A stretch of 55,010 nucleotides of DNA. It comes from Dehalococcoidia bacterium. GTDB lineage: Bacteria > Chloroflexota > Dehalococcoidia > CAUJGQ01. The position numbers and the translations under genes are program-made. The notes under the pieces were generated by a model that worked only from the letters and a program-made list of their open reading frames with translations, had not been told where the DNA came from and did not search any database. Location of the stretch: assembly GCA_035310145.1 (NCBI GenBank), contig DATGEL010000080.1, forward strand, positions 1 through 55,010. The letters are read 5' to 3'. How positions within the stretch are numbered: position 1 is the stretch's first letter; every line of letters starts with the position of its first letter. This document shows, in pieces, positions 52,695 through 54,470 of this stretch.

Positions 52695-52735
52695 TCTAGC
52701 AGCACGGCGAGGCGCGGTCTCGCCGCGCTGCCGAT

Positions 52736-53362
52736 TCAGGGAGAGCCGGGCGGGGCGATCGCCGCCGCCGGCCGGCGCAGCGCCACACCGGTGCGGCCGG
52801 CTTCGGCGGTCTGCGCGTCGAGCTGCAGGCCGAAACCGTCGGCCAGCCGCGTCAAGTAGTTGAAGATGCCGACGATGTGCGCGACCTCCAGCAGCGCCTC
52901 GTCGTCGCAGCCGAGGTCGCGCAGCGGCTGCCAGTCGTCGCGTGTCATGCGCGTGGGCGTGGCGCTCAGCTTCTCCGCCACCGTACACAGCGCCCGATCG
53001 CGCGGAGCCAGATCCGGCAGGTCGCGCCAGCGCCGTTCTTTGATCGCCTGCACCAGCTCGGGCTCGCCGTCTTCAACACGCAGAAACTCCGCGTGCGACT
53101 GCGTTCAATAGGTGCAGTCCTGGGCGCCGGCGGCCACGGCGGCGACCATCTCCTTCTCGCGACGGCTGAGCGCGCCGGGGGCGAACATCACCTGGGCAAA
53201 CAGGCTGAGGAACGGCTGCCCGAAGCGCGGGTGGGCGCGCAGCAGCCTGCCCATGTTGGCGACAAAGCCGAAATCGTAGCCGCCGCGCTTGCCGGGCGGA
53301 GCGCTCGCCTCGATCGCGGCCGCGCTCGGCAGTGTCACCCAGGCGGCATCTTGCTCGATCAT
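52736..53362 (-). CDS. AhpD-like / carboxymuconolactone decarboxylase-family peroxidase, probable selenoprotein (in-frame TGA at Cys position)
   Basis: The frame is open for 208 codons if the TGA at 53,105-53,107 is read through. Before it: MIEQDAAWVTLPS, FGFVANMGRLLRAHPRF, FAPGALSRREKEMVAAVAAGAQDCTY. After it: TQSHAEFLRVEDGEPELV, LAPRDRALCTVAEKLSATP, EVAHIVGIFNYLTRLADGFG. Both halves match one uninterrupted peroxidase-related AhpD-like protein. In that family the active site reads CxxCxxxH; here it is Cys83-Thr-Tyr-TGA86-Thr-Gln-Ser-His90, so the stop replaces exactly the second catalytic cysteine. A hairpin follows at once (see 53,076-53,096). Reading TGA as selenocysteine explains this; a point mutation TGC to TGA is the alternative. 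GAGGGG lies 9 bases before the ATG at 53,362. Confidence 0.8.
53076..53096 (-). other. Candidate bacterial SECIS hairpin
   Basis: Counting from the base after TGA on the minus strand, GCACGCGGA (9-17) pairs with UCUGCGUGU (21-29), with G-U at the bottom and one internal G-U. The loop is GUU, beginning with G. A stem of this kind with an apical loop starting in G, about 16-37 bases after the UGA, is what bacterial SelB-dependent SECIS elements require. Here the loop G is at +18. The stem lies fully in coding sequence. Confidence 0.7.
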
Positions 53363-53705: not shown

Positions 53706-54470
53706 ATGAAGGTGAGGGGAAGGAGCGCGGGCCCGATCGCGCTGGCCGCCGCCCTGGCCTTGTTGGGCGGCGTGGCCGGCGGCGCGCTGCCCGCCGCACA
53801 GGCACAGTCGGGGACGCCGACTCCTGCGGCGAACGTCGGCGGCCCGTCGGCCGTGCCCTCGGCGCGGTTCTTCGGATCGGTGAAGGTGGGCAACAGCAAC
53901 CCGCCCGATGGCACGACGGTGGTGGCCTCCGTGACGGGTGTCGCCTGCGGCTTCGGCACCGTCGCGAACGGCCAGTACTTCGTCGACGTGCAGGCGATTG
54001 CCGGCTGCACCACGCCAGGAGCGAGCGTCAGCTTCGCCGTCGGCGGCCAGACGGCGAGCACCACCGGCACCTTGCCGGGCGTGCCCGGTGCGGTCCAGCT
54101 CAACCTTTCCGTCAGCCAGGCCACACCCACGCCGGCGCCGGCGGCGACCTCCGCGCCAACACCGCCGCCACCGCCCAGCCGGCCGACGACCGCGCCGCCG
54201 CCGCCGCCCCCACCGCCACCAACGAGTCGCACGGCAACGCCGCGTCCCACGACCGCAACGCCGCGGACGCCGACGCCCGCCGCGGCACGCCGTCAGGCCG
54301 TGACCGGCCAGAAGCCGGCTGCCGCACAGCCCGCGGCGCGGGTCGCCCTGCCAAAGACCGGCGCCGGCGGCGCGAGGACGGATCACGACGGGCTACTGGC
54401 CGTCGTCGCCGGCCTCCTGGGCTTGAGCCTCGCCGGCATCGGACTGCTGCGCCTGCGCCGCTCGTCATAG
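53706..54470 (+). CDS. Secreted surface protein with LPKTG sortase-type anchor
   Basis: This 254-residue protein begins with a signal peptide (GPIALAAALALLGGVAGGALPAAQA, cut near residue 33). A small beta domain at about residues 50-138 (FFGSVKVGNSNPPDGTTVVASVTG, then CGFG... and AGCTTPGASVSFAVGG) holds two Cys that may pair. A long Pro/Thr/Ala-rich spacer follows. The C-terminus has LPKTGAGG, a hydrophobic helix (LLAVVAGLLGLSLAGIGLL) and a basic tail RLRRSS, the standard layout of a sortase substrate. AAAGGAG lies about 6 bases before the ATG. No sortase gene is present in the window. The beta domain resembles small binding modules common in Chloroflexota and archaea. Confidence 0.8.
   Translation: MKVRGRSAGPIALAAALALLGGVAGGALPAAQAQSGTPTPAANVGGPSAVPSARFFGSVKVGNSNPPDGTTVVASVTGVACGFGTVANGQYFVDVQAIAGCTTPGASVSFAVGGQTASTTGTLPGVPGAVQLNLSVSQATPTPAPAATSAPTPPPPPSRPTTAPPPPPPPPPTSRTATPRPTTATPRTPTPAAARRQAVTGQKPAAAQPAARVALPKTGAGGARTDHDGLLAVVAGLLGLSLAGIGLLRLRRSS

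Follow-up and report, generated by a model that had tools for sequence, protein, structure and literature searches.

The RNA hairpin directly downstream of an in-frame TGA in an AhpD-like (TIGR01926) gene is very probably a bacterial SECIS (bSECIS) element, at which SelB would mediate the insertion of selenocysteine (Sec) at the UGA to yield a redox product with a CxxU-xxx-H motif. The gene lies in the window, the whole stretch of 55,010 nt that was analyzed here, and its features are compiled in Table 1. Its TGA is conserved among homologues, the hairpin covaries, is constrained and is largely limited to homologues with TGA, purifying selection is detected and the genes of the Sec machinery are present. 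A first-pass annotation of this DNA had put the hairpin forward as SECIS-like support for recoding, a proposal that conservation, covariation and the Sec machinery genes bear out. In the proposed mechanism, the apical loop with its conserved G at +18 would be bound by SelB carrying Sec-tRNA(UCA) and GTP, the UGA would then be read as Sec, and translation would proceed as far as the terminal TGA (52736). The resulting protein, with the AhpD/CMD fold and the CxxU-xxx-H motif, would be a thiol/selenol redox enzyme, probably a peroxidase or a peroxidase-related enzyme.

Table 1. Features of the AhpD-like gene and its hairpin; positions refer to the window.
Feature	Position	Strand	Description or basis
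AhpD/CMD-like gene	52736..53362	minus	208 codons with in-frame TGA; translated with TGA = U
Start ATG of AhpD-like gene (probable)	53362-53360	minus	
In-frame TGA, proposed Sec codon (residue 86 from ATG)	53107-53105	minus	C-T-Y-U-T-Q-S-H; aligned TGA in homologues
Hairpin as first reported	53076..53096	minus	9 bp, GUU loop; fold
Conserved 7-bp core of the putative bSECIS	53078..53094	minus	RNAalifold consensus of 17 TGA forms; leave-clade-out model R1
Apical loop GUU	53085..53087	minus	G at 53087 = +18 from UGA
Terminal stop TGA of AhpD-like gene	52738-52736	minus	

The ATG is taken as the probable start because of a GAGGGG sequence upstream and of the orthologue L034. The in-frame TGA occupies the second redox position of a C-x-x-C motif. 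The readthrough translation scores 111.3 bits against the NCBIfam model TIGR01926 (peroxidase-related enzyme; cut-off 81.8) and 36.3 bits against Pfam CMD (cut-off 23), and the solved relatives of the protein by sequence include 2oyo and 6k40, among others. Downstream of the TGA, six pairwise comparisons (four orthologues) gave pN values of 0.15-0.20 and pS values of 0.42-0.60; since pN stays well under pS, this part of the gene is under purifying selection. An ordinary gene caller would end the protein at residue 85 or split the gene in two, and the evidence points to one selenoprotein. A divergently placed gene at 53706-54470 on the plus strand encodes a secreted-looking, proline/threonine-rich protein that ends in LPKTG, a hydrophobic stretch and RRSS; we take it to resemble a sortase-anchored protein on account of the LPKTG motif.

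Homologues were collected by searching 400 genomes of the phylum, in which 57 places in 51 genomes matched at an E-value of 1e-15 or better. These were supplemented with six places from a search of relatives (G001, G006, G031, G059) and with L034, the single locus that a search of genome contigs with the window protein returned. L037 (G101, 69% identity) spans only the part past the site and is excluded from all Sec/Cys counts, and neither L012 (E 7e-7), which gave no match on re-examination, nor L013 (E 7e-5) belongs to the Sec/Cys set. Locus L020 returned the neighbouring gene, which is counted as L014, and the second copy intended there was entered as L091. The codon aligned with the in-frame TGA is TGA in 35 and Cys in 28 of the 63 classified homologues, hereafter TGA and Cys forms, and nothing else in any of them. 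All three full orthologues (L034, L035 and L036; 64-69% identity) carry the TGA and keep the stem, the loss of which from orthologues with TGA had been named in the first-pass annotation as an outcome that would argue against a SECIS. A second AhpD-like gene in the same genome, the paralogue L010, also has TGA at this site.

The genome that contains the window encodes a tRNA-Sec (74.4 bits, anticodon tca, i.e. UCA), selB (325 bits), selA (520 bits) and selD (366 bits). A second RF01852 match over the cut-off was rejected as tRNA-Sec and is a tRNA-Ser. The selD gene (L090, contig C119) has an in-frame TGA within SCGGU, so SelD is probably a selenoprotein itself. Among 54 other genomes searched, selA exceeded the cut-off in 26 of the 27 that have a TGA form and in 19 of the 26 whose forms are all Cys, as well as in G101, where the site is not covered; the one genome with a TGA form in which selA was not found is G238, which is 84% complete.

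On the minus strand, the sequence reads UGA-ACGCAGUC-GCACGCGGA-GUU-UCUGCGUGU. Nine consecutive pairs, two of them G-U, enclose the loop, whose G lies 18 nt past the UGA. This is the structure that had originally been described, and it is exact both in the sequence and in the minimum-energy fold, which holds precisely the 9-bp stem at all three lengths folded; the folding energy amounts to -12.1 kcal/mol for the 21-nt hairpin and to -14.5 kcal/mol for 40 nt from the UGA. Of the two lengths, 7 bp is the more likely for the functional stem: the outer two pairs (53095-53096 with 53076-53077) lack conservation and occur in only seven and four, respectively, of the 17 TGA forms that share the window register. 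The loop G is invariant in all 17 of these rows, which were selected by that register. According to the Fig. 2 legend of PMC13188914 on the bSECIS consensus model (bSECISearch), a bSECIS has an apical loop of 3-9 nt, an upper stem of 4-16 bp, a G at loop position 1 or 2 that is usually followed by G or U, a spacing of 16-37 nt between UGA and apical loop, and an energy of -7.5 kcal/mol or lower. The window hairpin, with a 3-nt loop, a stem of 7-9 bp, G first and then U, and a spacing of 17 nt, lies within all numerical limits quoted from that source and shows no difference from the consensus.

The comparison of Sec and Cys homologues that the first-pass annotation had proposed as a check separates the two forms. 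A hairpin of bSECIS geometry at -6 kcal/mol or lower is found in 32 of 35 TGA forms versus 5 of 28 Cys forms, so that the stem is far from equally present in the latter, which had been listed as the other possible refutation; at -8 kcal/mol or lower the counts are 20/35 and 4/28. Median hairpin energies are -8.2 for TGA and -3.3 for Cys forms (Mann-Whitney p 5e-6, a value that ignores relatedness), and the hairpin is better than 95% of its own synonymous shuffles in 10/35 and 2/28, respectively. For the 17 TGA rows of the window register, RNAalifold predicts a 7-bp stem at -9.27 kcal/mol with two pairs changed on both sides: pair 17-27 is G-C in 13 rows and C-G in four, and pair 20-24 occurs as A-U, C-G, G-C and G-U. 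The same program returned no consensus pair among the 28 Cys forms. Since the 17 rows (alignment A1) were picked by register after inspection of the data, the covariation test is fairer on the full set of 35 TGA rows. There, 64.1% of cells pair in the window register and none of 500 shuffles reaches the covariation score, versus 37.9% of cells in the 28 Cys rows, for which 481 of 500 shuffles lie at or above the observed score. Codon usage gives a further contrast: pairs of sequences with identical amino acids share the codon at a rate of 0.91 in the hairpin versus 0.55 elsewhere in the window clade, 0.73 versus 0.49 in the 17 TGA forms and 0.44 versus 0.48 in Cys forms. The hairpin codons are thus synonymously constrained only in TGA forms.

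Exceptions occur on both sides. Three TGA forms (L047, L077 and L078) have a weak bSECIS-type hairpin or none, and strong SECIS-like hairpins that fall below their synonymous shuffles are present in two of the Cys forms, L018 and L059. The 10-bp hairpin of L018 (1741-1779, minus strand) belongs to a Cys form that groups, on a long branch, with a clade of TGA forms (the WFLQLQG type described below), and because of this grouping L018 may have changed recently from Sec to Cys and kept its hairpin as a relic. When hairpin and Sec were compared in a sign test that takes account of the tree, only two independent pairs lay on supported branches, so that the test is without power; at -8 kcal/mol, the hairpin ran counter to Sec in 0.9 of these pairs and with it in 0.4, on average. 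As the tree contains few independent Sec/Cys changes, the contrast between the forms does not represent many separate events. The comparison of covariation between TGA and Cys forms can tell true bSECIS elements from chance hairpins in GC-rich DNA.

Additionally, the site is recovered by a covariance model (R1) that was built from 13 TGA rows outside the clade of the window gene. Within the window, R1 detects the site at 29.5 bits (E 1.3e-5), followed by a next best match of 10.9 bits. In the 5.3-Mb genome, only the paralogue L010, a member of the training set, ranks above the site, and the third match (C12) scores 18.4 bits with an E-value of 0.93. A model from the same alignment without base pairs (R2), which uses sequence only, found nothing in the window at an E-value of 5 or below. 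Among 49 other loci, R1 retrieved the three orthologues and then, weakly, the TGA forms L077 and L078; it matched no Cys site, and its one remaining match, in L016 (E 0.98), lies off the site.

Viewed as a single sequence, the hairpin is far less conspicuous. Its dinucleotide-shuffle z-scores range from -0.9 to -1.3, and of the 1103 TGAs in the window, 47 are followed by a bSECIS-type hairpin of equal or greater strength, as are 4.1% of 10884 positions sampled there, in agreement with the earlier caution that GC-rich DNA forms hairpins readily. With the peptide kept the same, the 9-bp stem in the window register arises in 0.2% of 20000 synonymous recodings; among 4000 of them, 3% form some bSECIS-type hairpin of this stability. 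Folding energy of the single sequence was discarded as proof, because z is about -1 and roughly 4% of positions in this GC-rich window match the hairpin. These background values are also what speaks for the view that the TGA is a real stop, left by a pseudogene or truncation, or a sequencing error for a Cys codon, with the hairpin as a by-product of GC-rich DNA. However, three full orthologues and the paralogue L010 have TGA at the same codon, purifying selection continues past it, the stem covaries and is synonymously constrained, and the Sec machinery is complete in the genome, all of which makes a stop or an error very improbable. In searches with Rfam, nothing in the window reached the gathering level, and the matches obtained for 52900-53300 were all attributable to chance. 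A separate hairpin of -24.5 kcal/mol (52700-52738, minus strand) is located directly 3' of the terminal TGA of the gene and passes the geometric bSECIS rule; it is probably a gene-end inverted repeat and serves as a warning about the use of this rule in GC-rich DNA.

Readthrough might also proceed by other means, if the UGA were read by a near-cognate or suppressor tRNA or underwent another type of recoding, so that Trp or Cys would be inserted and the hairpin would be incidental or would slow the ribosome. All 28 homologues that lack the TGA have Cys at the aligned position, which is the usual Sec/Cys pairing, a tRNA-Sec with the anticodon tca is encoded in the genome, and the loop G and stem obey the bSECIS rules. 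Decoding of the UGA as anything but Sec is consequently considered extremely improbable.

With the hairpin interpreted as a bSECIS, two other groups of TGA forms present a different geometry. Five forms of the HAHDLRAEV type (L040, L042, L048, L049 and L069) have a 7-bp stem and a 6-nt CGUGCU loop that starts at +25, and seven forms of the WFLQLQG type (L066, L068, L072, L074, L076, L080 and L082) combine a 6-bp stem and, at +26, an AGUU loop. Each set constitutes one clade with full support, and the hairpins of both are positioned 7-8 nt farther downstream than that of the window gene and cover different parts of the protein. Many TGA subfamilies, that of the window gene among them, place a loop with G first at +18. 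Here, too, codons are shared more often at the shifted hairpin than elsewhere (0.80 versus 0.43 in the HAHDLRAEV type and 0.92 versus 0.57 in the WFLQLQG type). The departure in loop position from the bSECIS consensus is a feature of these two subfamilies and not of the window gene. On balance, the SECIS hairpin seems to have been relocated along the message within one AhpD-like family, with the Sec codon remaining fixed; relocation is the simple reading because +18 forms occur throughout the tree, whose root is unsettled. If this holds, nature provides in this family a series of SECIS positions on a single protein fold. The shifted hairpins of the sister clades lend themselves to a natural experiment on how much change in the UGA-to-loop distance SelB can tolerate.

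Selenoproteins of the AhpD-like CxxU kind are an established group, to which the window gene adds a clade. Members of TIGR01926/COG2128 have been described in a table of PMC13188914 and in PMC1088965 and PMC2398784, and COG2128 selenoproteins also appear in PMC1794560. The window protein has in common with these proteins a TIGR01926 score over the cut-off, the CxxU motif and a hairpin directly 3' of the UGA, and it differs in belonging to a distinct clade of the AQDCxYUxQSHAEFLR type, for which the literature search found no paper naming it. NF041238 (AhpD_rel_CFYUT, alkylhydroperoxidase-related (seleno)protein), which matches over profile positions 215-342, represents a related domain that, judging by the model name, carries Sec at the corresponding site. 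Membership of the window protein in that family was rejected, since the protein is shorter and reaches only 60.1 bits where the cut-off is 175.

The AQDCxYUxQSHAEFLR-type clade was seen in three genomes of the phylum of the window, including its own, and in one Acidobacteria MAG (metagenome-assembled genome), with a partial fourth in G101. Among the 110 genomes of the class of G165, no orthologue was found beyond that in G165 itself. Near this orthologue lies a 412-aa ORF (L089:4715-5953), which looks like an IS256-type transposase. The transposase-like ORF nearby and the presence in one of 110 genomes of the class hint at horizontal transfer or misbinning of the G165 orthologue.
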